In this document: positions 15,875 through 33,395 of the stretch, piece after piece
Layout of the letters: each line of letters starts with the position of its first letter
How positions within the stretch are numbered: the stretch's first letter is position 1
Origin: Streptomyces sindenensis
GTDB lineage: Bacteria; Actinomycetota; Actinomycetes; Streptomycetales; Streptomycetaceae
DNA: 64,000 nt
Assembly (NCBI RefSeq): GCF_014649035.1
Contig: NZ_BMSG01000001.1
Span: forward strand, 1 to 64,000
Direction: 5' to 3'
Position numbers and translations under genes: made by a program
Notes under the pieces: model-generated
Database searches by the model: none
What the model saw: the letters and a program-made list of their open reading frames with translations, nothing else
What the model was told of the DNA's origin: nothing

Positions 15875-15883
15875 GGGCCCGCA

Positions 15884-17850: not shown

Positions 17851-17865
17851 CTGGCGATCGGAAGG

Positions 17866-19164
17866 TCAGGATTCCTTGTTGATCAGCTCGTTGATCTTCT
17901 CGTCGGCCTTCTTGCTGGCGTCGGCGACGGAGGCGCCCTTGACGATCTCCAGGAGCATGTTCTGGAGGATCTCCTCCTTCTCCACGGAGGCCCAGCCCGG
18001 CGCGATCGGCGTGAACCAGGCGTCCGGCACCGCGTTGGCGATGGCGGCGGTCTCCGGCTTGGCCTTCAGCGGCTCAAGCTGCTTCTCGTTGTTGGGGAGG
18101 ATGTTCTTCGACGCGAGGACCTCCATGGACTTCGCGTTGGTGAAGAGGGAGATCCACTCCTCGCCGAGGTCCTGGATCTTGGACTTGGAGATGGTCGCGA
18201 GGTCCGAGCCGCCGATGAAGGACGGGAGGGCCTTGCCCTCGGGGCCGGGCATACCGGCCGTGGCGATCTTGCCCTCGAGCTTCGGGTTGCCGTTCTCGCC
18301 CGTGGTGACGCTGCCGGCCTCCCAGGCCTGGCCGTAGATCACGGCGGCCTTCTCGTTGGCCATGACGTTGGCGTGGTCCTGCTCGTCCTTCGTCACGTCG
18401 GCCTTGTTGTACTTCTTGACCAGGTCGACAAAGTGCTGGAGGCCCTTCTGCGCCTCCGGGGTGGACAGGGCGGCCTTCCACTCCTTGCTGCCCTCGTCGT
18501 ACGTGGCTATCTGGCCACCGTAGGCGGCGACGTAGGACATCGCGGCGTACCAGTAGCGGCCCGGGTAGTAGAGGGAGGAGGCGCGCTTGTCCTTCTTGCC
18601 CAGCTCGGCGTCGACCTTGTCCATCGCGGCGAGGAACTCGTCCTCGGTCTGCGGGAGGACGTCGCTGCCGGTGCCGGCCTTCAGCATGTCCTTGTTGTAC
18701 ACGGCCAGACGGGCGCTGGCGTAGTAAGGAACGCAGTAGGTCTTGCCCTCGAAGGAGCACGTGTCCTTCAGACCCTTGATCCAGGTGTCCGAGTTCTCGT
18801 ACTTCTTGGGGTCGATTTCTCCGAGCGCACCGTTGAGGATGTACTGCATGGTCTCGGTGTTGCCGAGTTCGACGACGTCCGGGAATTTGTCGCCACCGAG
18901 GGAGGTGTCCAGCTTCTTGACCTTGTCGGCCCACTGCTGGTACTGAACCTGGACCTTGACGCCCGGGTACTTCTTGTTGAACTCGGCGTTGACGTCCTTG
19001 ACCAGCTCCGGCCAGGTGGACTGGGCCTCGCCCATGAGCCAGACGGTCAGGGTTTCCTTGCGGTCCTTCGGGTCGGCGGACGAATTCTTGTCGTCCGAAC
19101 CACACGCCGCGACCGAAACCAACATGCCCGCGACACCGATCGCCGCGATGAGCTTGCGCTTCAC
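17866..19164 (-). CDS. dasA: Chitobiose-binding lipoprotein DasA
   Basis: 432 aa from GTG 19164 (GAGGAGGG, 6 nt). A lipoprotein signal with lipobox VAAC puts the acylated Cys at 21, followed by a short Asp/Ser linker. The body is an SBP type 1 fold (ETLTVWLMGEAQSTWPELVKDV..., GGSDLATISKSKIQDLGEEWISLF). DasA binds (GlcNAc)2 at the outer membrane face and delivers it to DasBC. Its promoter region carries two dre sites and it is divergent from its repressor gene dasR. Confidence 0.96.
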   Translation of the reverse strand: MKRKLIAAIGVAGMLVSVAACGSDDKNSSADPKDRKETLTVWLMGEAQSTWPELVKDVNAEFNKKYPGVKVQVQYQQWADKVKKLDTSLGGDKFPDVVELGNTETMQYILNGALGEIDPKKYENSDTWIKGLKDTCSFEGKTYCVPYYASARLAVYNKDMLKAGTGSDVLPQTEDEFLAAMDKVDAELGKKDKRASSLYYPGRYWYAAMSYVAAYGGQIATYDEGSKEWKAALSTPEAQKGLQHFVDLVKKYNKADVTKDEQDHANVMANEKAAVIYGQAWEAGSVTTGENGNPKLEGKIATAGMPGPEGKALPSFIGGSDLATISKSKIQDLGEEWISLFTNAKSMEVLASKNILPNNEKQLEPLKAKPETAAIANAVPDAWFTPIAPGWASVEKEEILQNMLLEIVKGASVADASKKADEKINELINKES

Positions 19165-19246
19165 GTCAAACCCTCCTCAGGGATGCTGCAACCCCACCCA
19201 CCGCGAAGACATTCGACGAGTTCTGCTGGGGCTGGACCTGGTCTTT

Positions 19247-19262
19247 AATGGTTTAGACCAGT
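19247..19262. promoter_or_regulatory. dre site 1 (dasA-dasR)
   Basis: AATGGTTTAGACCAGT; the core TGGTTTAGACCA has one mismatch to the consensus. It is 83 bp upstream of the dasA start. A partial third copy (CCTGGTCTTTAATGG) overlaps its left side at about 19236. Confidence 0.9.
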
Positions 19263-19270
19263 ACCGGGAG

Positions 19271-19286
19271 CTTGGCCTAGACCTTT
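19271..19286. promoter_or_regulatory. dre site 2 (dasA-dasR)
   Basis: CTTGGCCTAGACCTTT; the core has two mismatches (TGGCCTAGACCT). It is 24 bp centre to centre from site 1, between dasA and dasR. Confidence 0.85.
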
Positions 19287-19443
19287 AGGGGTGTCAAGGG
19301 TGTATAAGAAGTGCACTCGCGTCCGTTATAGGACCGACACCTAAGGGAGGGCGACGACCCGTGACCGGACCGTGCCACCATGTGAGCCGCGACAGACGGA
19401 GGAGCCGGTGACGGCAGCAACGCAAGCGTCGGGAAGGCGGGCC

Positions 19444-20208
19444 ATGAGTGCCGACGGGGGCAGTACGGGGAGCGAGACCGGTACGGGTACGCGCACGGCG
19501 CGCGTACCGAAGTACTACCGGCTCAAGCGGCATCTCCTCGATATGACGGACACCTTGCCGCCGGGCACCCCGGTGCCGCCCGAACGCACCCTGGCCGCCG
19601 AGTTCGACACCTCGCGCACCACCGTGCGCCAGGCCCTCCAGGAACTGGTCGTCGAGGGCCGGCTGGAACGCATCCAGGGCAAGGGCACCTTCGTCGCCAA
19701 GCCGAAGGTCTCCCAGGCCCTCCAGCTCACCTCGTACACCGAGGACATGCGCGCCCAGGGGCTGGAACCGACATCCCAGCTACTGGACATCGGCTATGTC
19801 ACGGCGGACGACACCCTCGCCGGTCTGCTGGACATCTCGACGGGCGGCCGGGTGCTGCGCATCGAGCGGCTCCGGCTCGCCAGCGGCGAACCGATGGCGA
19901 TCGAGACCACGCACCTTTCGGCCAAACGCTTCCCCGCGCTGCGCCGTTCGCTGGTGAAGTACACCTCGCTCTACACCGCGCTCGCCGAGGTGTACGACGT
20001 CCGCCTCGCCGAGGCGGAGGAGACCATCGAGACCTCGCTCGCCACGCCCCGGGAAGCGGGGCTGCTGGGCACCGATGTGGGCCTGCCGATGCTCATGCTG
20101 TCCCGCCATTCGGTGGACGGCCGGGGCGAACCGGTGGAGTGGGTGCGCTCGGTGTACCGGGGCGACCGCTACAAGTTCGTGGCGCGCCTGAAGCGTCCGA
20201 CGGACTGA
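19444..20208 (+). CDS. dasR: GntR/HutC-family global repressor DasR
   Basis: 254 aa from ATG 19444; a GTG at 19408 would add 12 residues. The N-terminal winged HTH spans about 20-85 ([45 protein letters not shown] and GKGTFVAKP). The C-terminal UTRA effector domain ([21 protein letters not shown] ... [15 protein letters not shown]) binds amino-sugar phosphates. DasR represses the GlcNAc/chitin genes and links nutrient state to development and antibiotics. It is divergent from dasA over a 279-bp region. Confidence 0.97.
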
Positions 20209-20240
20209 GCGCCGAAGGCGACGGCAGCACGGACACAAGG

Positions 20241-20278
20241 CGGTGGCCCGGGGATCGACTCCCCGGGCCACCGCCCGT
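20241..20278. terminator. Terminator between dasR and the aldo/keto reductase gene
   Basis: A perfect 13-bp stem (20241-20253 / 20261-20273), 7-nt loop, then CCCGTTTT. It lies between convergent genes. Confidence 0.88.
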
Positions 20279-20298: not shown

Positions 20299-21309
20299 TC
20301 AGCGCAGTTCGGGGTCCATCTCGATCACGCTGTACGGGTACGGGAGCGCCTGGTCGCTCGCCGCGGTGAGCAGGGCCGCGTCGGCCGGGTCCAGGTCCAG
20401 GTCCGCGGCTCCCAGGTTGGTCTCCAGCTGCTCCAGGGTGCGCGCGCCCACGATGGGGGCGGTGACGCCGGGCCGGCCGAGCAGCCAGGCGAGGGCCAGC
20501 ACCGGCACCGCCAGGCCCGTGCGCCCCGCGACCTCGTGCAGGGCGTCCAGCACCCGCCAGGTGCGCTCGTCGCCCTCGTACGCGCTCCAGGACTCGCCCC
20601 AGCCGAGCCGCTCGGCGGTCTCCACGCGGGTGCCCGTGGGCGGCCGCTGTGCACCGCGCCGGATCGCGCCGCTCAGCCAGCCGCCGCGCAGCGGGCTCCA
20701 CGGGATGACGCCGAGGCCCTCGTTGCGGCTGACCTCCAGCAGTTCCCACTCGGCGGAGCGGTCCAGCAGGTTGTAGAGCGGCTGGAGGGCGGTGAAGGGC
20801 TCCCAGCCGTTCGCACGGCTGAGGTCGACGGCCTTCTGGAGCTGCCAGCCGGAGAAGTTGCTGGCCCCGATGTAGCGCACCTTGCCGGAGGTGACCAGGG
20901 CGTCCAGCGTCGAGAGGGTCTCCTCCAGCGGGGTGCCGGGGTCCCAGGCGTGCACCTGGTAGAGGTCGATGTGGTCGGTGCCCAGCCGTCGCAGGCTCGA
21001 CTCGACCCCGGCGATCAGGTGCGCCCGGCCCAGCCCCCGGTCGTTCTGGCCTTCCCCGGTGCCGTACCGGACCTTGGTGGCGATCACCACGTCGTCACGG
21101 CGCTGTCTCTTCAGCCAGCGGCCGAGGATCTCCTCGGAGGCTCCGGCGGAGTAGATGTCGGCGGTGTCCACGAAGGTGCCGCCCGCCTCGGTGAAGCGGT
21201 CCAGCAGGGCGTGGCTGGTGGACTCGTCGGCCTCCCGGCCGAACGTCATGGCGCCCAGGCAGAGTTCACTGACCCGCAGGCCGGTCTTGCCGAGGTAGCG
21301 GTAACGCAT
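20299..21309 (-). CDS. Aldo/keto reductase
   Basis: 336 aa. AKR barrel with Asp and Tyr of the tetrad in [18 protein letters not shown], Lys in ATKVRYG, His in DLYQVHAWD, and the NADPH-binding end [14 protein letters not shown]. It reduces carbonyls or sugars with NADPH. It is the last gene of the leftward 12-gene operon and its start lies 44 bp inside the preceding gene, so it is probably translated with it. In the proposed sugar pathway it could reduce a keto-sugar; that is inference, since AKRs of this type are promiscuous. Confidence 0.9.
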
Positions 21310-22408
21310 GGTGGGTTCCTTCGTCGTGGTGGTGGACACGGAGGGCGGCCGGGGGCCGTTCGTCCGGTTCGGCGAGCGAGACGGACACTTCCTGGACGCA
21401 GTGGTCGGACAGTCCGCGCGGATCGCGGAAGCGGTAGCTGTGCACGCGGGCGCCCGGTGTGCTGAGCACCCAGTCCAGCCGCCACCAGCGCAGGCCCGGG
21501 CGAGGCTGCCAGGAGACGGGGCAGACCTTCCCGGCCAGGGCGACGGCATCGGCGCCCAGGCGGGCGATGCGGCGGGCGTCCCCGATCGCGGGGGTGGTGT
21601 TGAAGTCCCCGGCGATCAGGGCCGGGTGGGGGCAGCCGGCGACGTCCGCGAGGAGTCCCCGGTACTCCTGCCGCCGGTCGGCGGCCCGGGAGCGGACCGC
21701 GCGGTAGAAGTCTGCGCGCAACGGGCTGATCAGCCGCAGCTGTACCGGGATGTGGACGTTGAACGTGGCGAGAATCCGACCGTCGCCGGGCATCTCCAGA
21801 TCCACCCGCAGGGTCCGGCGAGCGGCCGTCTCGACGGTCGCGGCGACCGGCAGGCGGGACAGGGTGATCAGGCCGCGGGCGATGACGGCCTCGTGATCGG
21901 GGAAGGCCGCGCGCAGCCGCCACTCGTCGTCGATCAGCCGGTAGGTGCCGTCGAACCGGTCGTGGTGGTACTCCTGGAGGAGGTAGACGTCAGCGTCGAG
22001 CTCGCGCAGGAAGGCGTAGAACGCCTCGGGGTCGGTGCTCTGGCACCAGTGCTGGGTGTTCCAGGAGACGATGCGCACGGCCCCGTCCGGCGGTGGGCGG
22101 CGCGCTCCCCTGACCAGTGCGCCGGGCACCAGACCGGACTGCCGGACCCCCAGCAGCAGAGCCGCGGCCGCCACCGCTCCGGCCGCGAGGTCCCCCGTCA
22201 CCCCGGCGAGCGCCAGGAGCAGGGCGGGCACCACGGCGAAGAGGGGCGGCGGCAGCAGCGAGGGCAGCAGCCAGAACCACCAGCGGCCGTTGAGGGCGAG
22301 GTGGGCGGCGAGGAATCCGGCCCAGGCCAGCGCGGCCCACAGCGGCGGGCCCGGCTCCCCCGCAGCCGCGTTCGTGAGGGCCCCGCCGAGGGCGACGGCT
22401 GCCATCAC
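21266..22408 (-). CDS. VanJ-like membrane-anchored EEP-family phosphatase (copy 1)
   Basis: 380 aa. Three hydrophobic helices (about 20-95) come first. An endonuclease/exonuclease/phosphatase domain with an intact active site follows: VSWNTQHW (Asn), LLQEYHHD (Glu), AGDFNTTP (Asp, Asn), RLDWVLS and GLSDHC (His). The order matches VanJ, the teicoplanin-resistance protein thought to act on polyprenyl pyrophosphate outside the membrane. Start GTG 22408 overlaps the GT4 stop (GTGA); ATG 22405 also fits. It is paralogous to the gene at 23568. A lipid-phosphate substrate is inferred, not shown. Confidence 0.82.
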
Positions 22409-23571
22409 GCGGGGGCTCCCTGGACGCCCCGCCGTGCCCCGGCCTCCCGGAACAGGGCGTCGTAGGCGTCCAGGCAGTGGTCCGTCCCGTACCGGGCACG
22501 GGCATCGCGGCCTCCCTCGGCGCGGCGCTCCGGCGGGTAGGCGGCCACCTCGCGCAGGGCCGCGGCCAGGGCGTGGGCGTCGCCGGGCGGGAAAAGACGG
22601 CCGAAACCCGTCTCCGTCACCGGGACGCGCATCCCGGGGGCATCGCTCGCGACCGAGGGGACGCCGAGCATCATCGCCTCCGCCTGCGAGATGCCGAAGG
22701 ACTCCTCGGCGACGGACGGGAGGGCGAAGGCGTCCAACGAGGCGTAGAACCCGGCCACCTGGTCGTCGGGGAGGAAGCCGGTGAAGCGGATGCGGGCGTC
22801 GTCCCCGGCGCGGGCGCGCAGCGCCCCGACGACGCTGCCGCCGGCGACCTTGGAGTAGTCCCCCGCGATCAGCAGCCGGGCCTCGGGGTCCGGGAAGGCC
22901 CGGAAGGCGTCGACCAGGTGGTGCAGCCCCTTCTCCGGGGCGATCCGCCCGAGGAAGCCGATGTGCGGGCCCGTCGTCTCGCGGAAGGCGGCGGGCGCGG
23001 GCGCGCGCTCCCGGCAGGGCGGTGCGATGGAGAGCAGACGGCGCTCGCGCATCAGGGGCCAGTGGCGTGAATGCTCCGCGTGGTCCACGTTGTTGACGAC
23101 GACGGCCGCCGAGCGGCGCAGCGCCCCGGCGACCGAGGCGTCGACCACCCTGACCTGGAGCGGGGCGAGCACGCCGCCGGGCAGCCAGACGTCGTCGTGG
23201 TGGGTGGCGACGACCGGGGTGTCCTGGGCGAGCCGGGCGACGATCCCGGCCTCCAGCATCGGCAGATGGAGGTTGACGACCCGGGAGGCGCGGGCGACCC
23301 GTCCGGCGAGCGGGGCGAAGGCGGGGCTGACCACGCCGCGTCCGACGCGGGCGACGACCGGGGCGCGGAACACCTCCACGCCGTTCACGGTCTCCCGCGC
23401 GGGGTGTCCGGGTTCGTGCCGGCAGGCGACGACGGCGACCCGGCGGCCCCGCGCGGCCAGCCCTTCGGCGACCGTGCGGGCCACTTCGGTGAGCCCGCTG
23501 GTGTACGGGAGGTAGTAGGTGAGCACGATCGTCGCGTCGAAGCGGGGCGAGCGCGCGGAGCGCCGGGTCAT
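22405..23571 (-). CDS. GT4-family glycosyltransferase
   Basis: 388 aa, GT-B fold. The N-terminal acceptor domain begins TIVLTYYLPYTSGLTEVARTVAEGL. The C-terminal donor domain has GFLGRIAPEKGLHHLVDAF and the nucleotide-sugar motif EESFGISQAEAMMLGVPSVAS. It has no membrane segment. It uses an NDP-sugar on a lipid-linked or small-molecule acceptor. It overlaps both neighbours by 4 bp, so it is tightly coupled in the operon between the two VanJ-like genes. Confidence 0.9.
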   Translation of the reverse strand: MTRRSARSPRFDATIVLTYYLPYTSGLTEVARTVAEGLAARGRRVAVVACRHEPGHPARETVNGVEVFRAPVVARVGRGVVSPAFAPLAGRVARASRVVNLHLPMLEAGIVARLAQDTPVVATHHDDVWLPGGVLAPLQVRVVDASVAGALRRSAAVVVNNVDHAEHSRHWPLMRERRLLSIAPPCRERAPAPAAFRETTGPHIGFLGRIAPEKGLHHLVDAFRAFPDPEARLLIAGDYSKVAGGSVVGALRARAGDDARIRFTGFLPDDQVAGFYASLDAFALPSVAEESFGISQAEAMMLGVPSVASDAPGMRVPVTETGFGRLFPPGDAHALAAALREVAAYPPERRAEGGRDARARYGTDHCLDAYDALFREAGARRGVQGAPA

Positions 23572-24740
23572 GACCGGTCCTTCTCGGTGGCCGGGGCGGT
23601 GGTGGCCCCGGAGGCGGGCAGGGAGAGGTCCAGCTCGATCAGCCGGTGGGTGGAGAGCGCGGCGGGCGGGTCCTGGACGGACTGCCGGTGCAGGTCCACG
23701 CGGGGCGACACGAACGCCCAGTCGAGCCGCCAGAGGGCCGGGCCGCTCACCGGGAACGTCGCCGGGTACACCGAGTCCCCGGCGTCGGCGGCGTCCCGCA
23801 GTCCGTCGAACCAGCGCAGGTCCCCGGTGCCCGGCAGCACGTTGAGGTCCCCGGCGAGGACCACCGGGTTCTCGTTGGCGTCGAGGTCGTCGCGCAGAGC
23901 CCGGAAGTGGCGGTCGCGGCGGTCGGAGAGCTGCCGTACGGAGCGGTGGTAGGAGGCGGTCAAGGGGTTGCGGTCGACGTTCAGCAGATCGGGCAGGTGC
24001 GTGTTGTAGAGGGACAGGGTCTCGCCGTCCACCACGATGTCGGTGCGCAGGACGCGGATGTTCCAGTAGTCGGCCCAGGAGGTGTCGGGCGGGGCGAGGC
24101 CGTCGGGCCGCAGCGCCCGCACCGAGGTGATCGGGAAGCGGGACAGGGTGAGGAACTCCCCCTCGGTGGCGATGTGGAAGCCGGGGAACTCCCTTCGGAT
24201 CCGGGCCAGATCATCGATCGGGGCGGGTTCGTCGCCCCGGGCGTTCTGGTACTCCTGCAGGAGGTAGACGTCGGCGGAGCGGGACTTCAGGTAGCCGTAG
24301 AAGGCGTCGGTGTCGCTGTCCTGGTCCCAGAAGAAGGTGTTCCAGTTGACCACCTTCAGGGCGCCCGGGGGCACGGCCGGCTGTCCGCGCAGCAGCGCCC
24401 CGGGGTGCAGTCCGGTCTGCCAGGAGCCCAGCAGCAGCGAGACCAGGACGACGCCCACGGCCGCCCGCCGCCGGTGGCGGATCAGCGCGGCCGGGATCAA
24501 CAGGACCAGCGGGAAGAGGAGATGGAGGACGGGCGGGGCGAGGCCGAGCCCGTTCCACACCCACCACCGGCCGCTGAGGAGCGCGCGGGCGGCGACGAAC
24601 AGGGCCCACAGCACGGCCACGGCGAGCAGCAGCCGGCCGGGCCACCGGCGGACGTCCCTCTCCCGCTCTCCCGGCCGGGGGGCGTCGGCCGCGTCCGGGT
24701 CCGCGGGGGCGGCGCTGGCCGCCGTCAGGCCCCCCGTCAT
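23568..24740 (-). CDS. VanJ-like membrane-anchored EEP-family phosphatase (copy 2)
   Basis: 390 aa from ATG 24740 (ATGA overlap with the GT2 stop); the longer frame to 24812 runs into GT2. A 40-residue hydrophilic N-terminus precedes three helices (about 57-140). The EEP domain then shows VVNWNTFFW, YLLQEYQN, AGDLNVLPG and RLDWAFVS, but the final motif is LSTHR where copy 1 has SDHC; the His is kept. Same architecture as copy 1 and probably an old duplication. The catalytic domain should face outside, as in VanJ. Confidence 0.82.
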   Translation of the reverse strand: MTGGLTAASAAPADPDAADAPRPGERERDVRRWPGRLLLAVAVLWALFVAARALLSGRWWVWNGLGLAPPVLHLLFPLVLLIPAALIRHRRRAAVGVVLVSLLLGSWQTGLHPGALLRGQPAVPPGALKVVNWNTFFWDQDSDTDAFYGYLKSRSADVYLLQEYQNARGDEPAPIDDLARIRREFPGFHIATEGEFLTLSRFPITSVRALRPDGLAPPDTSWADYWNIRVLRTDIVVDGETLSLYNTHLPDLLNVDRNPLTASYHRSVRQLSDRRDRHFRALRDDLDANENPVVLAGDLNVLPGTGDLRWFDGLRDAADAGDSVYPATFPVSGPALWRLDWAFVSPRVDLHRQSVQDPPAALSTHRLIELDLSLPASGATTAPATEKDRS

Positions 24741-25768
24741 GGCGTGGCCCGTACCGTGTCGAGGTGCGCCCCCGGCTCGTACAGGCGCCGGAAGCGGCGG
24801 GAGGCCAGCCACTGGAGGACACCGACGCCCGCGCCCACCGCGATGACCGCGTTGACGACAGTGTGCGCGAAGGCGAAGTAGGCGGCGAACAGGGGGCCCC
24901 TGCGGCCCAGCACGAAGCGGTACAGGGCGGTGTCGGCGAGCAGGGCGAGGGCGAGCAGGGCGGCGGGGACCAGCAGCCAGGGCGCGGCGAGCAGGCCGAG
25001 CGGCAGGGTGGTCAGGGCGAGCAGGGCCGCGACGCTGGCCCCGGCCCGGGGTCCGGTGGCGATGCCGCCGGGAAGGTCGCCCCGGCGCACGTACAGCGGG
25101 ATGTGCAGCCGGGTGCGGTGGAAGACCTTGCGCAGCACGACCCGCCAGGTGTCGTCGTGGTCGTGCCGTCCCCGGACGGCGGTGGAGCTGTGGACCTCGT
25201 AGCTCCGGCAGATGCGGGCGGCGTAGTCGCCGTCCTCGGTGTGGCGCAGCCGGGGGTTGAAGGGGCCGATCTCGGCGAAGACACGGGCGGGCATGGCGCA
25301 GATCGCGGTGTGCAGGGTGCCGATGCGGCCCTCGGTTTCGGCCAGCCAGTAGAACTGGTGCAGGCAGCGGTACTCCTCGATCAGGCTGTCGCGGATGAGG
25401 GGTTCGGCGTCGTAGGTGCCGCAGACCGCGCCGATGCGGGGGTCCGAGTCGAGCAGGGCGACGGCGTTGGCGATCGCGTCCGGTTCCATCGCCACGTCGG
25501 AGTCGACGAACACGACGATCTCGCCCCGGGCGTGGGCCGCCCCCGTGTTGCGGGTGGTGGCGACCCCGCTGTTGACGCCGGTGCTGATCACCCGCACCCC
25601 GCAGGCCTCGGCGACGGCGACGGAGTCGTCGGTGGAGCAGTCGTCGACGAGCAGCACCTCCAGGGGCTCGTAGGTCTGGGCGAGGGCGGCGCGCAGGCAG
25701 AGTTCCAGGGCGCGGCCGTAGTTGTAGTTGGGGATGACGATGGAGACGAGGGGGTGCTTCCGGTTCAT
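24737..25768 (-). CDS. GT2-family glycosyltransferase with C-terminal membrane helices (copy 1)
   Basis: 343 aa. GT-A domain: VSIVIPNYNYGRALELCLRAAL, VDDCSTDDSV and the DxD-type motif FVDSDVAMEPDA; the acceptor/catalytic region is RLRHTEDGDYAARI. Two to three hydrophobic segments follow from about residue 235 (LLALTTLPLGLLAAPWLLVPAALLALALLA). It probably transfers a sugar to a polyprenyl phosphate or lipid-linked acceptor at the inner membrane face. It is 52 bp downstream of the UbiA gene and paralogous to the gene at 30482. Confidence 0.88.
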   Translation of the reverse strand: MNRKHPLVSIVIPNYNYGRALELCLRAALAQTYEPLEVLLVDDCSTDDSVAVAEACGVRVISTGVNSGVATTRNTGAAHARGEIVVFVDSDVAMEPDAIANAVALLDSDPRIGAVCGTYDAEPLIRDSLIEEYRCLHQFYWLAETEGRIGTLHTAICAMPARVFAEIGPFNPRLRHTEDGDYAARICRSYEVHSSTAVRGRHDHDDTWRVVLRKVFHRTRLHIPLYVRRGDLPGGIATGPRAGASVAALLALTTLPLGLLAAPWLLVPAALLALALLADTALYRFVLGRRGPLFAAYFAFAHTVVNAVIAVGAGVGVLQWLASRRFRRLYEPGAHLDTVRATP

Positions 25769-25820
25769 GGGACGCCTTCGGGCGGTCGGAGGGGCGGACG
25801 GGCGGGCCGGACGGAGACCG

Positions 25821-26906
25821 TCAGCCGGAGGGGCGCGTGAGGAGGGCGAGGACGACGAGGACCGCCCACAGGCCGGCGTTGACGAGGGTCACGCGGTCCC
25901 GGAGGAGGACGTGGACGGGGTTGCCGCCGCCCTCCTCGACCAGGAGGAGCTGGAGGTAGCGGGCGAGGCCGAAGACGGCGCAGGGGGCGGAGAGCAGGAT
26001 GACGAAGGAGGCCCCGGCGGCGAGCGCCGCGTCGTCGCGGAGGTAGAGGACGTAACTGACGGCGGTCAGCGCGGCGACCAGGACGACCAGGTGGTCGAGG
26101 AAGGCGGGCGTGTAGCCGCGCAGGGCGGGGCGGTGGGCGCGGCCCGCCGCCGTCATCTCGTGCCGCCGTTTGCCGAGGGACAGCATCAGGCAGAGCGAGA
26201 AGACGCAGAGCGCCAGCCATTCGGAGAGCCGGCCTCCGATGAGCAGCGCCCCCTGGAGGAGCCGGAGGACGAAGCCGGTCGCCACGATGAAGGCGTCCAC
26301 CAGCGGTACGTGCTTGAGCCCCTGGGAGTACGCGAGGCTCAGCGCCAGGTAGAGGGCGGTGGGCCACCACTGCCAGGCGGGACCGGCCACCGCCCAGCCG
26401 GTCAGCGACAGGGCGAGGAGCCCGGTCAGGACGGTGGCGGCGGCCGGGGAGACGCGGCCGGAGGCGATCGGGCGGTGGCGTTTGACCGGGTGCAGGCGGT
26501 CCCGCTCCCGGTCTGCGAGGTCGTTGACGACGTAGACGACGGCGGAGGCGAGGGTGAAACCGAGGATCGCCCAGCCGGTGCGCAGGAGTTCGGCGGCCCC
26601 CCAGGGGTGGGTGTCGAGGAGTGCGAGCGGGACGACGGCCAGGTTCTTCACCCACTGGCCGGGGCGCACCAGCGCGAGCAGGTCACGGGGACGGCTGCGG
26701 CGGCGGCGTTCCTCCGGTACGGCGGTGGGGGCGACGGCCGTCTCCGGCCGGTCGTGGGCGGACCCGGGCCGCACGGTGAGGTCGGTGGGCTCGGGCAGGG
26801 ACGTCAGGTGGGCGGGCTCGGACAGAGCCGTGAGGTCGACGGGTTCGGGGTCGGGCGGGACTGCCACCACGCGCGGGGGCGCGGGGGACGACCGGGTGAT
26901 GTCCAC
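25821..26906 (-). CDS. UbiA prenyltransferase, decaprenyl-phosphate phosphoribosyltransferase type
   Basis: 361 aa from GTG 26906. The first 70 residues are a Pro/Glu-rich cytoplasmic tail with degenerate DLTxLxEP repeats. Then come about eight helices. The signature VVNDLADRERDRLHPVKRHRP (from about 127) matches the N-D-x2-D ... H-P-x-K-x2-RPIA motif of mycobacterial Rv3806c, which transfers phosphoribose from PRPP to decaprenyl phosphate. YSQGLKHVPLVDAFIVA is the second motif. It is therefore predicted to make polyprenyl-phosphoryl-5-phosphoribose, the likely first lipid intermediate of this operon. The specificity is inferred from motif only. Confidence 0.87.
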   Translation of the reverse strand: MDITRSSPAPPRVVAVPPDPEPVDLTALSEPAHLTSLPEPTDLTVRPGSAHDRPETAVAPTAVPEERRRRSRPRDLLALVRPGQWVKNLAVVPLALLDTHPWGAAELLRTGWAILGFTLASAVVYVVNDLADRERDRLHPVKRHRPIASGRVSPAAATVLTGLLALSLTGWAVAGPAWQWWPTALYLALSLAYSQGLKHVPLVDAFIVATGFVLRLLQGALLIGGRLSEWLALCVFSLCLMLSLGKRRHEMTAAGRAHRPALRGYTPAFLDHLVVLVAALTAVSYVLYLRDDAALAAGASFVILLSAPCAVFGLARYLQLLLVEEGGGNPVHVLLRDRVTLVNAGLWAVLVVLALLTRPSG

Positions 26907-26923
26907 GGCAGGGCTCCAGGGGA

Positions 26924-27970
26924 TCAGAAGAAGACCTTGGCCAGGCCGAGCGCCCCTTGGCGCCACGGGTCCCGGCTGGTCCGGCCGGCTCCGGGAGCGG
27001 GGGCGCCGCCCCGCCGCTGCGTCCGCCACCACGCGTAGGTGGAGAGGATGGCGTCCTGGTTGGAGAGCGCGGGACGGAAGCCGAGGCGCTCGGTGGCCCG
27101 GGCGATGTCCACGTAGCTGTCGTCGAGGAGCTTGAACAGCAGCCTCCCGTAGACCGGGGAGAGCTTGGTGCGCTCCAGTGCGCGCAGGACCGCCAGAGCC
27201 GGTGCTGCCGGCAGCGGGACCACGCGTTTGCCGTGCCCGGCCGCGTCCAGCACGGCCTGGAAGTCCTCGCGCAGGGTGCCGAATTCGGCGGCGCCCAGGT
27301 TGTAGACGTCGTTCGCGACCTCGGGCGGGGCGTGCAGGGCGAGCACCACGGCGTCGACCAGGTCGGCCATGCCGAACATCTGGATGCGGACGTCGCCACG
27401 GCCCAGGACCGGGAAGTTGCGCCGTTCCTCGGCCCATTCGAAGAGCATCGAGAAGAGGCCCATCCGGCCGGGTCCGAGGAAGGTCTTGGGGCGCAGGACC
27501 GGCAGGCACATCCCGCGCCCCCGGAACTCCTCGCAGACCTCCTCGGCCTCGGCCTTGGCGCTGCTGTACGGGTCGACGGGTTCGCGGGGGTGGTCCTCCG
27601 GGGTGGGGACCCGCTTCGGCAGCCCGTAGACGGCGGTGGAGGAGATGTGCACGACCCGTTCGACACGGGCCCGTCGAGCGGCGGTCAGGACGGCCCGGGT
27701 GCCGTCGACGGTGATCGAGCGGATCTGGTCGACGGGGTAGGAGGGCAGGGCGGCGGCACAGTGCACCAGCGCGTGGGCCCCGTCGAAGGCGCGGGCGAGC
27801 GCGGCCCCGTCCCGGATGTCGGCGACGACGTGCCGGGCGCCGGCGGGCGGGTGGGGGTCCTCGCGCAGGTCGATCCCGACGACGTCGTGGCCGTCGGCGG
27901 CGAGCCGGGCGACGAGGTGGGAACCGAGCATGCCCGCGGCGCCGGTCACGGCGATGGTCAGGCCGCCCAT
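26924..27970 (-). CDS. NAD-dependent epimerase/dehydratase (extended SDR)
   Basis: 348 aa from ATG 27970. A Rossmann motif TIAVTGAAGMLGSHLVARL starts the protein. The active-site triad is visible as Ser-Ser (ISSTAVYG) and YSSAK (Tyr and Lys), with Arg-rich VLRPKTFLGPG after it. Extended SDRs oxidise, epimerise or dehydrate nucleotide- or lipid-linked sugars using bound NAD. The gene overlaps the aminotransferase by 13 bp. A keto-sugar produced here would suit the adjacent aminotransferase; this link is inference. Confidence 0.9.
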   Translation of the reverse strand: MGGLTIAVTGAAGMLGSHLVARLAADGHDVVGIDLREDPHPPAGARHVVADIRDGAALARAFDGAHALVHCAAALPSYPVDQIRSITVDGTRAVLTAARRARVERVVHISSTAVYGLPKRVPTPEDHPREPVDPYSSAKAEAEEVCEEFRGRGMCLPVLRPKTFLGPGRMGLFSMLFEWAEERRNFPVLGRGDVRIQMFGMADLVDAVVLALHAPPEVANDVYNLGAAEFGTLREDFQAVLDAAGHGKRVVPLPAAPALAVLRALERTKLSPVYGRLLFKLLDDSYVDIARATERLGFRPALSNQDAILSTYAWWRTQRRGGAPAPGAGRTSRDPWRQGALGLAKVFF

Positions 27971-29406
27971 CGGGACACCGCCTTGTCCTTGAAGAAGGCG
28001 GCGAGAAGGCGGTTCATGCCTTTGGCCAGGGTCCGGTCGAAGGCGTCGAGGAAGATCTCCACCTCGTCGGGGCCCGCGACCAGGCAGGGGGCGGCCACCA
28101 GGGGGCTGCGGCCGTTGAGCGTGTAGTACATGTACACGTCGTGGTCGTGGTACATCGCGTTGACGACCGCGCAGGTGATGACCTTGGTGCGCAGCAGCGG
28201 GTCGCGGGCGAGGCCGCCGGGGGCGATCTTCGCGGCGAGGTCCAGGAGGCGGGGGCCGCCGTCGAGGAAGATCCCGTACAGCGCACCGGCGCCCCGGACG
28301 TCGGCGATGAGGTCGGGGTACTGCTTGCGCAGCCTCTCCAGGCCCGGCTTCAGGACGCGTTCGATGGCGCGGGCGCGGGCCGGGTAGTCGTCCTCGACCG
28401 CGATGTTGACGGCTTCCAGCGCGGTGGCGGTCTCTTCGCCGAAGCCGTAGTAGGTGGTGCTGGTGGACTGGAGCATGGCGTCGCCGAGGCTGTCGTAGGC
28501 CGCACGGAAGACGGGCTCGCGGGCGACGAAGGCGGAGATGGAGGACTTGCCGCCGCCGAAGGACTTCGAGGTGGTCACGACGTCCGGGACGAGGTCCGGG
28601 TAGCGCATGAAGTGGAAGAGGCTGCCCGTCTTGCCCCACCCGGTGTATATCTCGTCGAAGATCAGCACGATCTTCTCGGCGGTGCACAACTCCCGCAGCC
28701 CGCGCAGGAACTCCTCGGAGCACTCGGTCATGGTGGAGGCCGAGAAGGGCTCGATGAGGATCGCGTAGACGTCGCAGCGCCCCTTTGCGTCGCGGGCCCC
28801 GGCGACGGCCTGCCGTACGGAGTCGAGGTCGCCGTACCGGAAGGCGGAGACACCGGGGATGCCGGGGAAGGCGAAGGCGTTCTGGGCGCTGCCGGTGAGG
28901 CTGCCCGAGCCGAGGAGCTTGCCGTGGAAGCTGATGTCGGCGTGCAGGATCTGCCGGCGGCGGCCTCCGTGGAACTTGTACGCGAGTTTCACCGCGCCCT
29001 CGACGGCTTCCGCCCCGGAGTTGGGGAAGAAGGAGAGGTTCAGGTCGCCGGGGAGGAGCCGGGCGAGGTTGTGGCCGAGGGCGGCGATGTAGGGCGAGAA
29101 GTAGGTCTTGTGGACCTCCATCCGGCGCCGTTCCTGGAAGCGGCGGCGGGCGGCGAGGACGCGCGGGTGGTTGTGGCCGTGGTTGAGGACGCCGACGCCG
29201 CCGGTGAAGTCGAGGATCCGGCGGCCGTCCCGGGTGTGGATCCAGGACCCTTCGGCGTGGTCGACGAGTTCGCGGCCGAAGCCGAAGGAGGTCATCAGGG
29301 AGACCTGGCTCTTGTTGACGTGGGACCGGTACAGCTCGTGCACCTGGCTCGTCGACAGTCGTTCGCAGTCGTCCACGGTGAGCAGGGGGGTGGCGTCGGA
29401 GGTCAT
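27958..29406 (-). CDS. Class III PLP aminotransferase
   Basis: 482 aa from ATG 29406 (ATGA overlap). Fold-type I: LDFTGGVGVLNHGHNHPRVL, PNSGAEAVEGAVKLAYKFHG (phosphate binding), the IFDEIYTGWGKTGSLF Asp251 that pairs with the pyridine nitrogen, and Lys281 in TTSKSFGGGK as the Schiff-base residue. It is slightly longer than ornithine/acetylornithine-type enzymes. Its place in an operon of glycosyltransferases and an epimerase suggests it aminates a sugar or makes an amino-acid-derived substituent; the amino acceptor is unknown. Confidence 0.9.
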   Translation of the reverse strand: MTSDATPLLTVDDCERLSTSQVHELYRSHVNKSQVSLMTSFGFGRELVDHAEGSWIHTRDGRRILDFTGGVGVLNHGHNHPRVLAARRRFQERRRMEVHKTYFSPYIAALGHNLARLLPGDLNLSFFPNSGAEAVEGAVKLAYKFHGGRRRQILHADISFHGKLLGSGSLTGSAQNAFAFPGIPGVSAFRYGDLDSVRQAVAGARDAKGRCDVYAILIEPFSASTMTECSEEFLRGLRELCTAEKIVLIFDEIYTGWGKTGSLFHFMRYPDLVPDVVTTSKSFGGGKSSISAFVAREPVFRAAYDSLGDAMLQSTSTTYYGFGEETATALEAVNIAVEDDYPARARAIERVLKPGLERLRKQYPDLIADVRGAGALYGIFLDGGPRLLDLAAKIAPGGLARDPLLRTKVITCAVVNAMYHDHDVYMYYTLNGRSPLVAAPCLVAGPDEVEIFLDAFDRTLAKGMNRLLAAFFKDKAVSRWAA

Positions 29407-30485
29407 GCGGCTCCTTCCCGGAGCGCGGGTCGTGGGGCGGGCAGGGGTCCGGCGGCGCGGGCCCAGGCGAGAGCGGCACCGGTGACGGCGACCTCGCTGA
29501 GCACGCAGACGAGCCGGCTGGCGATGACGGCGGCGGTGGCGGCGGAGAGCGGCATGACCGCGCCCAGGGGGACGAGGAGGACGAGCTCGCGCGCTCCCCA
29601 GCCGTCGGGCAGGACGAAGGCGAGGCTCCCGGCGACGGTGGCCAGGGCGAAGCCGCCGACGCAGACGGGCAGGGAGAGCAGCGGCGGGGCGCCGAGCAGG
29701 ACGGCGATGACCCACAGGTGGAGTCCGGAGACCGCCCAGGAGGCGCACGCCCAGCCGATGGAGAGCCGCAGGGCGCGGGGCGAGCTGTCGGCGGCCCCGG
29801 CGGGTCGGCGGGCCAGCCGCATCGTCCAGGCGACGAGCCGGCCCACCCAGCCGGGCCGGGCCACGGCGGCCGCGGCGACCAGCACGAGCGGGGCGAAGAC
29901 CCAGGCGCCCGCGCCGAACACGGCCGGGGCGACGAGGAGTCCGGCGGCGGCCCCGGTGGTCATCCCGATGACGAGGCCGAGTCCGAAGGCGGCGATCATC
30001 CGCTCGGGGGTGATGCCGACGGCCTTGCCGAGCTGGACGTGGGCGAGGACGCCCCAGATCCGGCCGGGGACGAACTTGGCTATGACGCCGATGAAGAAGA
30101 TGCGGGCGGTGTCGCTGGTACGGGCGGGGGAACCGCCGTCCACGACCAGGACCCGCCAGGAGAGCATCGACAGGACGAGTCCGGCGGCGTTGGCGGCCAC
30201 GGCCGCGCTCAGCAGGAGCACTCCCCCGGGCCGGCCGGCGGCGTCGGCCAGCTCCGTCCCGGCCGCGCGGAGCGAACCGCCGACGGCGAAGCAGGTGGCC
30301 GCGACGAGGACGAGCGCGGCGGCGGGACGCAGCACCCGGGCCCACCGGGAGGGACGGGACGCGGTTTCTGGCGCCGCCCGGTCCACGGGTGCGGCGTCCT
30401 GCGCCACCCCGTCCCCGGGTGCGGCGTCCTGCAACGGTCCTCGGGCCCGTACGGCTTCCGGCTCCCGGTTCCGTCCGGCGCTCAC
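29403..30485 (-). CDS. UPF0104/MprF-flippase-like integral membrane protein
   Basis: 360 aa from GTG 30485 (GTGA overlap). A 50-residue hydrophilic N-terminus includes a repeated DAAP motif encoded by a 30-bp direct repeat (30387-30432). Seven to eight helices follow. Family motifs are present: LSMLSWRVLV, FFIGVIAKFVPGRIWGVLAHVQLGKAVG and VLPDGWGARELVLL. Relatives include the flippase half of MprF and lipid-linked sugar translocators. It is a good candidate to move the operon's lipid-linked product across the membrane. Confidence 0.85.
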   Translation of the reverse strand: MSAGRNREPEAVRARGPLQDAAPGDGVAQDAAPVDRAAPETASRPSRWARVLRPAAALVLVAATCFAVGGSLRAAGTELADAAGRPGGVLLLSAAVAANAAGLVLSMLSWRVLVVDGGSPARTSDTARIFFIGVIAKFVPGRIWGVLAHVQLGKAVGITPERMIAAFGLGLVIGMTTGAAAGLLVAPAVFGAGAWVFAPLVLVAAAAVARPGWVGRLVAWTMRLARRPAGAADSSPRALRLSIGWACASWAVSGLHLWVIAVLLGAPPLLSLPVCVGGFALATVAGSLAFVLPDGWGARELVLLVPLGAVMPLSAATAAVIASRLVCVLSEVAVTGAALAWARAAGPLPAPRPALREGAA

Positions 30486-31519
30486 GGTGCCGCCGCCGGG
30501 GCCGGATCGTCGCTGCGGGCGCGGCGTCCCCGCACCGAGGGGCCGAAGCGCGGGTCCACCAGCCAGCGCACGCCGCCGGCCACCGCGCCGAGCACGAGGG
30601 CCAGGTGCACCGCGAAGTGCAGCGCGGTGAAGCGGAGCAGGAAGGGCCACCCCTTGCGGCGCGCCACGAAACGGGACAGGCCCACGTCCGCCAGGGCGAA
30701 GGCGGCCGCGCAGGCGAGCGGCACCGCGAGGAGCCAGGGGGTGAGCAGGACGAGCGGCAGCGTGAGCGGGACCAGGCCGGCGGCGAGCACGCCGCCCGTA
30801 CGGTTGGCCCGCAGTCCGCCGCCGCGCCGGCGTTCCACGGCGGCGACGGGGACGAGGAGCTGGGAGCGGCGGTACTGCTCGGCGAGCATCGGCAGCAGCC
30901 GGTCCACGTCGTCGTGGCGGCCGGTCACCCGTTCGCTGAGCCGGATGCGGTGGGTGGCGGCGAGGCGGTCGCTGTACTCGACGTCCTCGGAGTCGCGGAG
31001 GTTCTCGTCGAAGGGCCCGGTGGCCTCGAAGACGGAGCGCTCGATCGCGGCGAGCGCGAAGAAGGCGGTGCCGACGACTCCGGCGCTGCGGCGCCGCCAG
31101 AAGTGCGCGTGCAGGCAGTGGTAGACCTCCACCGGGCCGTCGTCGAAGAGCGGTTCGGGGTCGAGGACGCCGTGGACGCAGCCGGTCTCCGGATCGTCCA
31201 TGAGCAGGTCGACGGCGTTCTCGATCGCGTCGGGGGCCAGGGCTATGTCGGAGTCGAGGAAGAACAGCACCTGCCCGGAGGAGGCGGCGACGCCCAGGTT
31301 GCGGGCGGCGGAGACCCCGCCGTTCTCCGGGCGGGCCACCAGGACGCACGGGAAGGCGCGGGCGATGTCGCGGGAGCCGTCGGTGCTGGCGTCGTCCACG
31401 ACGACCACGTCCAGCGGGCGCAGGGTCTGGGCGTAGACGGACTCCAGGCAGGCCCGCAGGGTCTTCTCGTAGTTGTGGTTGGGGATGATCACTGACACGG
31501 AGGGGCGCTCCCGTGGCAT
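30482..31519 (-). CDS. GT2-family glycosyltransferase with C-terminal membrane helices (copy 2)
   Basis: 345 aa. Same layout as the gene at 24737: VSVIIPNHNYEKTLRACLESV, VVDDASTDGS, FFLDSDIALAPDA, NLRDSEDVEYSDRL, then hydrophobic segments from about 240 (LAAGLVPLTLPLVLLTPWLLAVPLACAAAFAL). The two share order, length and a catalytic [TS]ED motif, so they are paralogues probably adding different residues to related lipid acceptors. The start overlaps the preceding 126-aa gene by 31 bp. Confidence 0.88.
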   Translation of the reverse strand: MPRERPSVSVIIPNHNYEKTLRACLESVYAQTLRPLDVVVVDDASTDGSRDIARAFPCVLVARPENGGVSAARNLGVAASSGQVLFFLDSDIALAPDAIENAVDLLMDDPETGCVHGVLDPEPLFDDGPVEVYHCLHAHFWRRRSAGVVGTAFFALAAIERSVFEATGPFDENLRDSEDVEYSDRLAATHRIRLSERVTGRHDDVDRLLPMLAEQYRRSQLLVPVAAVERRRGGGLRANRTGGVLAAGLVPLTLPLVLLTPWLLAVPLACAAAFALADVGLSRFVARRKGWPFLLRFTALHFAVHLALVLGAVAGGVRWLVDPRFGPSVRGRRARSDDPAPAAAP

Positions 31520-31869
31520 GGCGGGTCCGGTCCTTTCGGGTCGGGGGATCGGTGCGGGACCGGGCGGGCGAAGACGCCGCCGAGTGCGGCGGGCCGCCAG
31601 TCGAGGGAGGAGGGCCCGGCGGCGCACAGGGCCGCCAGAAGGTGCTCCAGGGCGGCCAGTTCGGCCTGGAGGGGGTCGGGGCTCTCCATGTAGAGCGCGG
31701 CGCGGACCGTGCCGTCCGGGCCCTCGACGACGTACACATGGACCGGTCCGGGCGTGGGCGGTCCGGCCCGGACGCGGTGGGAGCGCAGCCAGCGTGCCAG
31801 GTCGCGGGCGGTCCACCGGTCGGTGCGCGGGGGCCCGGTGCACACGAGGAGCGCGGTCACCAGGAACAC
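31489..31869 (-). CDS. Unknown protein, 126 aa
   Basis: GTG start at 31869 (VFLVTALLVCTG). Codon use is typical of the neighbours (nearly every third base G or C) until the last 30 bp, which overlap the GT2 gene. A central segment, PVHVYVVEGPDGTVRAALYMESPDP, looks like a small alpha/beta fold, followed by a Leu/Ala-rich helix (LQAELAALEHLLAALCAAG). The tail is Pro-rich. I recognise no family. It is the second gene of the operon, 22 bp after the 36-aa peptide gene. Confidence 0.65.
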   Translation of the reverse strand: MFLVTALLVCTGPPRTDRWTARDLARWLRSHRVRAGPPTPGPVHVYVVEGPDGTVRAALYMESPDPLQAELAALEHLLAALCAAGPSSLDWRPAALGGVFARPVPHRSPDPKGPDPPCHGSAPPCQ

Positions 31870-31891
31870 GGAGGCGTCCCGTTCCCCCGGG

Positions 31892-32002
31892 TCACCCCCA
31901 GGAGAAGCCGTCCCGGGCCGGGGCGGCGCACAGGGCCGCCCCGCGGGCGGGAGAGCCGGCGGTCGACGCGCGGCGGAAGGCAGGGAGGGGAAACGCCCGC
32001 AT
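31892..32002 (-). CDS. 36-aa peptide gene, first in the 12-gene operon
   Basis: The ATG at 32002 follows GAGGAG by 7 nt, one of the best ribosome binding sites of the operon. The product starts MRAFPLPAFRRAS and ends PARDGFSWG, with one Cys and no membrane segment. It is too short to be enzymatic. It could be a regulatory leader peptide, a small accessory protein or a precursor peptide; no classical RiPP-modifying gene is nearby. The longer frame to 32236 looks non-coding. Confidence 0.5.
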   Translation of the reverse strand: MRAFPLPAFRRASTAGSPARGAALCAAPARDGFSWG

Positions 32003-32402: not shown

Positions 32403-33395
32403 ATGTTAGAGGTACTGGGGCTGGACGAGCGGACGGAGCTGGTCTACCGGCTCGTCCTGGAGGAACCGGAACTGCGGCTCGACGAGATCGTGGCCCGGCT
32501 GGGGCGGAGCGAGGACGATGTGCGCCGGGCCCTGGACCAGTTGGCGGAGCTGTGCCTGCTGGACGACGGCCCCCACGGGGCGGAGCAGGGCCCGCCGGTC
32601 TTCCGGGCCCTGGACCCGGCGACCAGCCTGCCGTTCCTCCTCTCCCGCCGGGAGGCCGAACTGGCGCGGCAGCAGCGGGGGCTCGAAGTCGCCCGGGACG
32701 CGATGTCGGCCCTCACCACGGACCGGGGGCGGCGGGCCGGCGGCGGATTCGACGCCGTCAAGCGGCTGGAGGGGCTCGACGCGGTACGCGAGCGGCTGAC
32801 CGAACTGGCCGAGCTGGCCAGGGCGGAATGCCTCTCGCTGCTGCCCGGCGGCGCGCAGTCCCCGGACACGCTGGAGGCGAGCTGGCCTCTCGACCGGCGG
32901 GCGCTGGAGCGCGGGGTGCGGCTGCGCAGCATCTACCAGGACAGCTTCCGCAACGACCCGCTGACCCTGCGCTACGTGAACCGGCTGGGGTCGCTCGGCG
33001 CGGAGAACCGGACGCTGCCGACGCTGCCCCTGGTCATGGTGGTGGTGGACGGTGAGGTCGCGCTGGTGCCGCTGGACCCCGACGACGGGCGGGCGGGCGC
33101 CCTGGAGTTGCGCAGCAAGGGGGCGGTCGCGGTGGCCCGGACGCTGTTCGAGCAGCTGTGGGTGAACGCCACCCCGCTCGGCTCCGCTCCGGCCCGCGAC
33201 GACAACGGGCTGACCCCGCAGGAGGACGAGCTGCTGTCGCTGCTGGCGAAGGGGCACACGGACGCGACTGCGGCCCGCCGCCTGGGGGTCTCGCTGCGTA
33301 CCGTGCGCCGGATGAACGCGGAGCTGACGGCCCGGATGCAGGTCCGCAGCAGGTTCCAGGCGGGTGCGGAGGCGGCCCGGCGGGGCTGGGTCTGA
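32403..33395 (+). CDS. TrmB/LuxR-type transcriptional regulator
   Basis: 330 aa from ATG 32403 (GGGGAG upstream). The N-terminal TrmB-like winged helix (about 1-60: MLEVLGLDERTELVYRLVLEEP, RLDEIVARLGRSEDDVRRAL) is followed by a middle PLD-like sensor region with LRSIYQDSFRND and a C-terminal LuxR HTH (LTPQEDELLSLLAKGHTDATAARRLGVSLRTVRRM). Such regulators often sit beside specialised gene clusters in Streptomyces. It is divergent from the 12-gene operon and is its most likely local controller. The ligand is unknown. Confidence 0.85.
   Translation: MLEVLGLDERTELVYRLVLEEPELRLDEIVARLGRSEDDVRRALDQLAELCLLDDGPHGAEQGPPVFRALDPATSLPFLLSRREAELARQQRGLEVARDAMSALTTDRGRRAGGGFDAVKRLEGLDAVRERLTELAELARAECLSLLPGGAQSPDTLEASWPLDRRALERGVRLRSIYQDSFRNDPLTLRYVNRLGSLGAENRTLPTLPLVMVVVDGEVALVPLDPDDGRAGALELRSKGAVAVARTLFEQLWVNATPLGSAPARDDNGLTPQEDELLSLLAKGHTDATAARRLGVSLRTVRRMNAELTARMQVRSRFQAGAEAARRGWV

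Follow-up and report, generated by a model that had tools for sequence, protein, structure and literature searches.

A conserved actinobacterial operon built around a phosphoribosyltransferase-like UbiA protein and its possible role in lipid-linked aminopentofuranose synthesis

The window analysed here, 64,000 nucleotides at positions 1 to 64,000 of contig NZ_BMSG01000001.1 of Streptomyces sindenensis (assembly GCF_014649035.1), carries a run of twelve leftward genes that extends from a short peptide gene to a gene for an aldo/keto reductase (AKR) and includes those for a UbiA-fold protein, a class III aminotransferase, several glycosyltransferases (GT) and two membrane hydrolases of the endonuclease/exonuclease/phosphatase (EEP) fold. 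On balance we lean to the view that this operon makes a polyprenyl-phosphate-linked pentofuranose derived from 5-phosphoribosyl-1-pyrophosphate (PRPP), which would be aminated by the aminotransferase, exported and extended into a sugar-lipid or glycan, all these activities being predicted. The genes are, in the order of the operon:

31892-32002, minus strand: peptide of 36 amino acids ending in ...RDGFSWG, first gene of the operon (GFSWG motif scan, database search)
31489-31869, minus strand: small conserved protein of 126 amino acids (relatives among called genes and tblastn)
30482-31519, minus strand: GT2a glycosyltransferase with C-terminal hydrophobic segments (Pfam, hydropathy)
29403-30485, minus strand: LPG_synthase_TM/UPF0104-like membrane protein, predicted flippase (PF03706, 43.6 bits; cut-off 33.4)
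27958-29406, minus strand: class III pyridoxal phosphate-dependent aminotransferase (Pfam, Lys and Asp motifs)
26924-27970, minus strand: extended GalE-like short-chain dehydrogenase/reductase (SDR), epimerase or dehydrogenase (Pfam, structure model)
25821-26906, minus strand: UbiA-fold enzyme resembling polyprenyl-phosphate phosphoribosyltransferases (PRTases) (Pfam, PDB match, residues, tree)
24737-25768, minus strand: GT2b glycosyltransferase (Pfam)
23568-24740, minus strand: EEP1, membrane-anchored EEP-fold hydrolase (Pfam, structure model)
22405-23571, minus strand: GT4 glycosyltransferase (Pfam)
21266-22405, minus strand: EEP2, second membrane EEP hydrolase, SDH motif intact (Pfam; 40% identical to EEP1)
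20299-21309, minus strand: aldo/keto reductase, AKR (PF00248, 253 bits)

The first-pass annotation took these genes (32002-20299) for one tight operon, and all twelve indeed lie on the minus strand at the positions listed. With the starts chosen here the widest gap, between the genes of UbiA and GT2b, is 52 bp, exactly the upper limit given earlier. The same annotation described the junctions as mostly ATGA/GTGA overlaps; overlaps were found at 8 of the 11 junctions, but the wording is somewhat overstated, since exact four-base ATGA or GTGA overlaps occur at four of them (a fifth arises if EEP2 starts from GTG at 22408). The GTG start of UbiA was chosen by the homologue P0001, which begins MDITRSSP. 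Pfam bore out the families of the ten larger genes, which follow in the order GT2, LPG_synthase_TM, class III aminotransferase, NAD epimerase, UbiA, GT2, EEP, GT4, EEP and AKR. The GC content at third codon positions is 0.89-0.96 across the eleven longer genes. A scan for sigma-70 promoters found none.

The UbiA protein was assigned earlier to the decaprenylphosphoryl-5-phosphoribose (DPPR) synthase type, and this assignment held. It belongs to the UbiA fold family (PF01040, 83 bits; cut-off 34.2), it matches the DPPR synthase structure of M. tuberculosis (8j8j, E 5.7e-28), and a multispecies Streptomyces protein shares 93% identity with it. Twelve PRPP-contact residues of Rv3806c, as given in PMC10994848, were compared with 75 cluster UbiA proteins. 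Nine of them (R22, K28, Y70, N73, D77, K87, R90, Y138 and K143) are identical wherever the cluster UbiA aligns, each being covered in 69-75 of the 75 proteins, the remainder being gaps that probably reflect miscalled starts. K28, Y70 and K87 are all missing from the five further UbiA proteins encoded by this genome. The tree agrees with this assignment, although the split is weak. It was built from 53 rows: the window UbiA, 24 randomly taken longer cluster UbiA, those of three of ten orthologue loci, 19 paralogues, the five other UbiA and Rv3806c. In the best tree 48 rows (28 of window type, 19 DprE-linked and Rv3806c) stand apart from the five others of this genome, which sit on very long branches, with a support of only 61/87 and in 60% of bootstrap trees. 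Rv3806c nests within the DprE-linked group (support 100/98); window-type proteins form an assemblage outside it rather than a single clade, and rows from loci of the L147-L149 type (described below) and from L064 and L108 branch closer to the DprE-linked group. A UbiA step starting from PRPP is well supported by sequence, the activity itself being a prediction.

Conservation of the gene set, proposed as a check at first pass, was followed in 80 actinobacterial loci, the best 80 of 109 found by likeness to the aminotransferase (69-92% identical to the query). Presence in these loci is counted by best-hit labels, counts out of 81 include the window, and the 64 loci that span 21 kb or more are referred to as full-flank loci. 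Genes in related loci were called by a codon-score script, whose start positions and short genes are to be read as approximations; EEP2 of the window escaped it, and so did the small gene in L056 and in L069, which tblastn recovered. The aminotransferase and the SDR were each registered in all 80 loci, UbiA in 75, the UPF0104-like protein in 73, EEP1-like proteins in 69, GT2a-like in 66, GT2b-like in 65 and EEP2-like in 33. AKR (48/80) and GT4 (21/80) therefore do not belong to the core, which comprises six families: aminotransferase, SDR, UbiA, UPF0104-like protein, GT2 and membrane EEP. All six are kept in 59 of the 64 full-flank loci, where UbiA lies no more than 7.0 kb from the aminotransferase in 63 cases. 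Among the five exceptions L054 lacks UbiA, three give no GT2 hit and one gives neither a GT2 nor a UPF0104 hit; the four other loci without UbiA (L048, L089, L106 and L110) are cut by contig ends. The gene order is far from fixed, 31 orders being counted across the 80 loci, a number inflated by contig-cut ones.

Whole genomes agree with this picture, each search being limited to few scored candidates per genome. In 394 genomes of Actinomycetes the aminotransferase (at least 72% identity) and UbiA (at least 51%) occur in the same five, and a sixth aminotransferase, 63% identical, belongs to a genome without UbiA at that level. Among 200 Streptomycetaceae all eight genomes with the aminotransferase (at least 71%) fall within the eleven with UbiA (at least 49%). 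Since homologues of the set adjoin one another in many genera, including Streptomyces, Micromonospora, Salinispora, Herbidospora, Actinokineospora and others, their grouping is not a matter of chance, and the set is a patchy accessory module whose genes co-occur. Neither of the two outcomes named at first pass as refuting, a UbiA that clusters with quinone or other prenyltransferases and a set not conserved together, occurred, the separation of UbiA in the tree being weakly supported. In Micromonospora (L046-L050) the cluster is bordered by a two-component system and by genes whose products read as a further UbiA-like protein and an AMP-ligase-like one.

Catalytic motifs are intact in the aminotransferase, in the SDR and in most EEP proteins. 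The Lys (TTSKxFGGGK) and Asp (FDE) motifs of the aminotransferase are present in 81/81 loci, and so is YxxAK of the SDR, TGxxGxLG being found in 77. The SDR gene directly follows that of the aminotransferase in 80/80 loci. A more distant aminotransferase relative (61-64% identity), registered at 11 places in the genome searches, was followed in eight fetched loci (L139-L146), where it lies in a different conserved cluster. All eight contain a PgfS/ArnC-like GT2, a flavin adenine dinucleotide (FAD)-dependent amine-oxidoreductase-like protein and a GMC oxidoreductase (one representative of each was scanned), six contain what reads as an MFS-like protein, and a small protein is in the cluster too. 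These neighbours are consistent with an amination that follows oxidation of a lipid-linked sugar.

Membrane helices were judged by a plain hydropathy window and by one structure model, that of EEP1 (mean predicted confidence, pLDDT, 91), which combines hydrophobic helices with an EEP domain. Its 50 listed fold matches, of a generic EEP kind, have query-normalised TM-scores of 0.41-0.47 and include neutral sphingomyelinase, a mannosyl-6-phosphatase and many nucleases. EEP1, for which a likeness to VanJ was suggested at first pass, gave no NCBIfam match at 0.01 and nothing better than E 0.45 in a sequence search of PDB. Across 107 EEP proteins, EEP1 being one of them, N134 is conserved in 92, E163 in 106, H248 in 106, D298 in 98, N300 in 107 and H365 in 105; just before H365 stands Asp in 79 proteins and Thr in 22. 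GT2 is fused to a UPF0104-like domain in six loci (cluster c33; L054 was checked by Pfam), to EEP in two (L090, Pfam-checked, and L093) and to an acyltransferase domain in another two (one scanned). A GT87 protein accompanies seven loci (one scanned); members of this family use polyprenyl-phosphate donors. A NodB-like deacetylase (c22) and a methyltransferase are found in 10 loci each, the former out of 81 (one of each was scanned). In 12 loci (L073, L074, L080, L084, L089, L091, L094, L096, L097, L101, L102 and L106) the gene after AKR encodes an MMPL-family protein (c19; one scanned), which may export lipids in that variant.

Based on these neighbours and on precedent we infer the steps beyond UbiA as follows. 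UbiA would convert PRPP to polyprenyl-phosphate-ribose-5-phosphate, from which a membrane EEP hydrolase would strip the 5-phosphate, in place of the mycobacterial PAP2 or the Citrobacter HAD phosphatase. The GalE-like SDR, replacing DprE1/DprE2, may then oxidise or epimerise the lipid-linked ribose, and the aminotransferase coupled to it would add an amino group to the resulting carbonyl, at C3 if the SDR acts like ORF13 of Citrobacter, or at C5 if the primary-amine chemistry of class III enzymes decides. The lipid sugar would be flipped by the UPF0104-like protein, which is sometimes fused to GT2, and extended by the GT2 and GT4 enzymes. The roles of EEP as a 5-phosphatase, of SDR and aminotransferase on a lipid-linked sugar and of the UPF0104-like protein as a flippase are plausible predictions. 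The product is likely to be a sugar-lipid or surface glycan.

Several observations weigh against this scheme. The 80 loci were selected by closeness to one aminotransferase, so conservation with the aminotransferase was partly selected for. UbiA scores below the cut-offs of the NCBIfam decaprenyl-phosphate phosphoribosyltransferases (198 of 234 and 173.9 of 207 bits) and is therefore not filed as an equivalog. Three of the 12 PRPP contacts differ in the alignment of 75 cluster proteins: Q135 is replaced by N in 59 and by S in 16, Y157 by F in 75/75, and K208 by P in 74 and by R in one. According to PMC10994848, Phe also occupies the Y157 position in some mycobacteria. L054, with full flanks, has no UbiA in place, and the sole relative in its genome is only 34% identical. 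EEP1 has Thr at the position of the last catalytic Asp, as do the other proteins of the 22/107 mentioned above. No GT-C enzyme was present among the Pfam results for the operon proteins. The SDR model (pLDDT 86.9) is closest to epimerases of uridine diphosphate (UDP)-sugars, and since the nearest solved relatives are nucleotide-sugar epimerases, the SDR may act on a nucleoside diphosphate (NDP)-sugar; the aminotransferase, likewise, might have an unrelated soluble compound as its substrate. The main doubt concerns precisely the activity of the aminotransferase on a lipid-linked sugar; the core can exist without it. Three Streptomycetaceae genomes (G137, G053 and G099; loci L147-L149) lack this aminotransferase but retain UbiA, SDR, EEP and GT2, hence the SDR does not serve amination solely; beyond these they hold UPF0104 and AKR together with the regulator, the small protein and the GFSWG peptide. 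In these loci a protein that combines a beta-lactamase-fold domain with an Rv3818-like SCP2 domain and a Rieske domain takes the place of the aminotransferase (L147 was scanned).

It is these loci, keeping UbiA, SDR, EEP, GT2, UPF0104 and AKR, that favour the first alternative, in which the lipid-linked pentofuranose of the operon (ribo-, xylo- or arabino-) bears no amino group, as in Citrobacter, and the aminotransferase supplies a separate amino block, an NDP-sugar or a small amine, for the glycosyltransferases. The best-scoring solved match of the aminotransferase, putrescine aminotransferase, points in the same direction, class III aminotransferases usually acting on soluble amines. However, the invariable proximity of aminotransferase and SDR, with a correlation of 0.85 between their pairwise identities (compared within the set only, where other pairs give 0.82-0.89), and the position of the 61-64% aminotransferase relative next to other lipid-sugar enzymes and FAD oxidoreductases speak against it. 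We consider this alternative rather unlikely, though worth keeping in mind.

The scheme with a lipid-linked aminopentofuranose presumes that UbiA uses a lipid carrier. If it phosphoribosylated an acceptor other than polyprenyl phosphate, the operon would be a natural-product pathway unrelated to lipid carriers. The substitution of Y157, which in Rv3806c contacts the lipid phosphate (PMC10994848), could be explained in this way, as could nearby regulators of the kind met in secondary metabolism, an NB-ARC family (c7) in 32/81 loci and a LuxR-type family (c8) in 28/81. Yet K28, which according to the same text serves both donor and lipid-phosphate binding, is kept, and the membrane GT2, UPF0104 and GT87 partners suggest lipid carriers. 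We take this explanation to be improbable.

A further proposal is that UbiA and EEP of the operon replace a DPPR synthase and phosphatase lost from the genome and feed the retained DprE1/DprE2, giving decaprenyl-phosphate-arabinose. The genome does retain DprE1 (62%) and DprE2 (L165, G000:C1:486500-505500), no UbiA, PAP2 or GtrA gene being called there, and it encodes no PRTase-type UbiA other than that of the window. In L165 the PAP2-UbiA-GtrA block of other Streptomyces is missing and a gene that reads as YihY-like adjoins DprE1/DprE2. DprE1 without a DprE-type PRTase was found in 12 of 200 Streptomycetaceae genomes; the window type is present in 3 of these 12 and in 8 of the 188 others (Fisher p 0.02), while another PRTase is present in 1/11 window-type genomes and in 89/189 others (p 0.014). 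However, the three positive genomes appear closely related, which inflates the p values, 9 of those 12 genomes have no PRTase-type UbiA at E 1e-15, and DprE1 is missing at E 1e-80 from 7 of the 11 window-type genomes. DprE1 is thus not needed, and replacement is very improbable. The idea that the operon itself yields an arabinose donor dependent on DprE1/DprE2 was rejected. A quinone- or heme-type UbiA was rejected by the contact residues, the tree speaking against it weakly.

The returning element of part of these clusters, next to the predicted aminopentofuranose enzymes, is the peptide encoded by the first gene. The operon peptide, listed without weight at first pass, is, judging by its sequence relatives, a member of a conserved family whose C-terminus is invariably GFSWG. 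A RiPP or a peptide-signal system may be considered, the observation itself being one of sequence conservation. Short open reading frames (ORFs) with exactly this ending were found in 24 of 103 loci scanned: in 21 of 81 aminotransferase-type loci (the window included), in 3 (L147-L149) of 12 loci with aminotransferase relatives or clusters of the L147-L149 type, and in none of 10 DprE-linked UbiA loci. SWG-ending antisense ORFs within GT2 genes were discarded as an artefact. The peptides are 23-84 amino acids long with the starts chosen, and many combine a hydrophobic N-terminal stretch with a spacer rich in Thr, Pro and Ala, others having neither. A database search with 18 peptides, which picks candidates by shared words and thereby favours the motif, listed 62 proteins, 46 of them at E <=1e-3 and 59 ending in GFSWG. 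Neither the small protein nor the peptide (three peptides scanned) matched a family at its cut-off; the window peptide had no match in NCBIfam, and two relatives reached 17.4 and 12.7 of the 35 bits demanded by the NCBIfam family WGxxGxxG (NF041742), from which the present peptides differ in ending exactly in GFSWG.

The small protein has 23 relatives among called genes, and a hidden Markov model built on them finds these only; tblastn added matches in L056 and L069. All 23 loci with a called small protein carry the GFSWG peptide about 20-75 nt upstream (23 of 25 when L056 and L069 are counted). The peptide copy in L056 is degenerate and ends in GFSRA, L069 has no clear copy, and in L077 the peptide is present although no small gene was called. 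Divergently from the peptide gene the window contains:

32403-33395, plus strand: LuxR-type regulator with TrmB-like N-terminus (family c8)

Family c8 is present in 24/24 loci with the peptide and also in seven without the exact motif (L056, L069, L064, L067, L070, L089 and L106), two of which, L089 and L106, are cut upstream. An obligate pathway substrate was rejected as a role of the peptide, GFSWG being found in only 21/81 aminotransferase-type loci, some of the others being cut by contig ends. Since the peptide is missing from most clusters yet always accompanied by the c8 regulator, a regulatory role is favoured over that of a substrate, related loci not being independent. Most probably, in part of the clusters the GFSWG peptide, its partner protein and the LuxR/TrmB-like regulator control expression. 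A broader suggestion, offered only tentatively, is that clusters for PRPP-derived lipid-linked aminopentofuranoses have swapped every step of the arabinose route other than UbiA, and that GFSWG peptides, secreted or cytosolic and read by a LuxR/TrmB-like regulator, act to switch them on or to decorate them.

Downstream, between the AKR stop and a convergent GntR gene, lies a possible terminator:

20239-20275, no strand assigned: 16-bp inverted repeat (hairpin)

In the adjoining part of the window (14345-20208) the gene of a GH3 enzyme is accompanied by those of two ABC permeases, of a solute-binding protein and of a GntR/UTRA regulator; Pfam was run on GH3 and GntR, and the remaining families were named via locus relatives. 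This neighbourhood is reminiscent of the DasR-DasABC locus. The GntR/UTRA family is found in 23/81 loci and the solute-binding protein in 25/81, which implies that the site is often occupied by differing operon variants.

No paper describing this gene set was found among those judged by title and start of abstract, most subscription papers lying outside the search. UbiA-based donors of lipid-linked pentofuranoses are known, and what was not found described is their assembly with an aminotransferase, EEP and UPF0104 and with neither GT-C nor DprE1/DprE2. In modification of lipid A with 4-amino-4-deoxy-L-arabinose (Ara4N, arn genes) an amino-pentose made from UDP-glucuronate is placed on polyprenyl phosphate, flipped and transferred. 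The operon shares with it the idea of a lipid-linked amino-pentose and, in the 10/81 loci noted above, a NodB-like deacetylase, but its sugar would derive from PRPP via UbiA and its aminotransferase is of class III. With the mycobacterial and actinobacterial decaprenyl-phosphate-arabinose route (of the Rv3806c, Rv3807c, DprE1, DprE2 and GtrA type) it shares conserved PRPP contacts and probably the UbiA subfamily, whereas PAP2, DprE1, DprE2 and GtrA are absent from the operon according to Pfam. UbiA relatives of 32-43% identity, in contrast, stand with DprE1 and DprE2 in 10/10 loci fetched, with PAP2 in 8 and with GtrA in 6 (names from representatives).

Lipid-linked pentofuranoses are donors of arabinose for the mycobacterial wall and, since 2024, of ribose and xylose for Gram-negative glycans (PMC11127046). 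There, in the three-component pentofuranose addition of Citrobacter youngae O1/O2 (ORF12-15), a UbiA-type PRPP-using synthase, one GalE-like SDR and a separate flippase are described, all three having putative counterparts here; both a lipid-linked pentose synthase and a GalE-like SDR are encoded in the operon, by sequence and model only. In O2 the single GalE-like SDR, ORF13, decides between ribofuranose and xylofuranose and is the closest functional precedent for the operon SDR, likened to it by description rather than by sequence. The HAD domain of Citrobacter is matched here by membrane EEP hydrolases (PF03372) and the MATE-type flippase by the UPF0104-like protein (PF03706), the GT-C enzyme (GT136) has no counterpart in the operon, GT87 being found only in the seven related loci, and the aminotransferase, GT2, GT4, AKR and the peptide are additional. 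If the proposed pathway is true, it would bring new enzymes, namely an EEP sugar-lipid phosphatase, a UPF0104 pentose-lipid flippase and an aminotransferase acting on a lipid-linked sugar, as well as a product family still to be found, and GFSWG peptides may be a new signal or acceptor. Next to the arabinose route and the Citrobacter system the operon would then be a third assembly, which extends lipid-linked pentofuranose chemistry to amino-pentoses.

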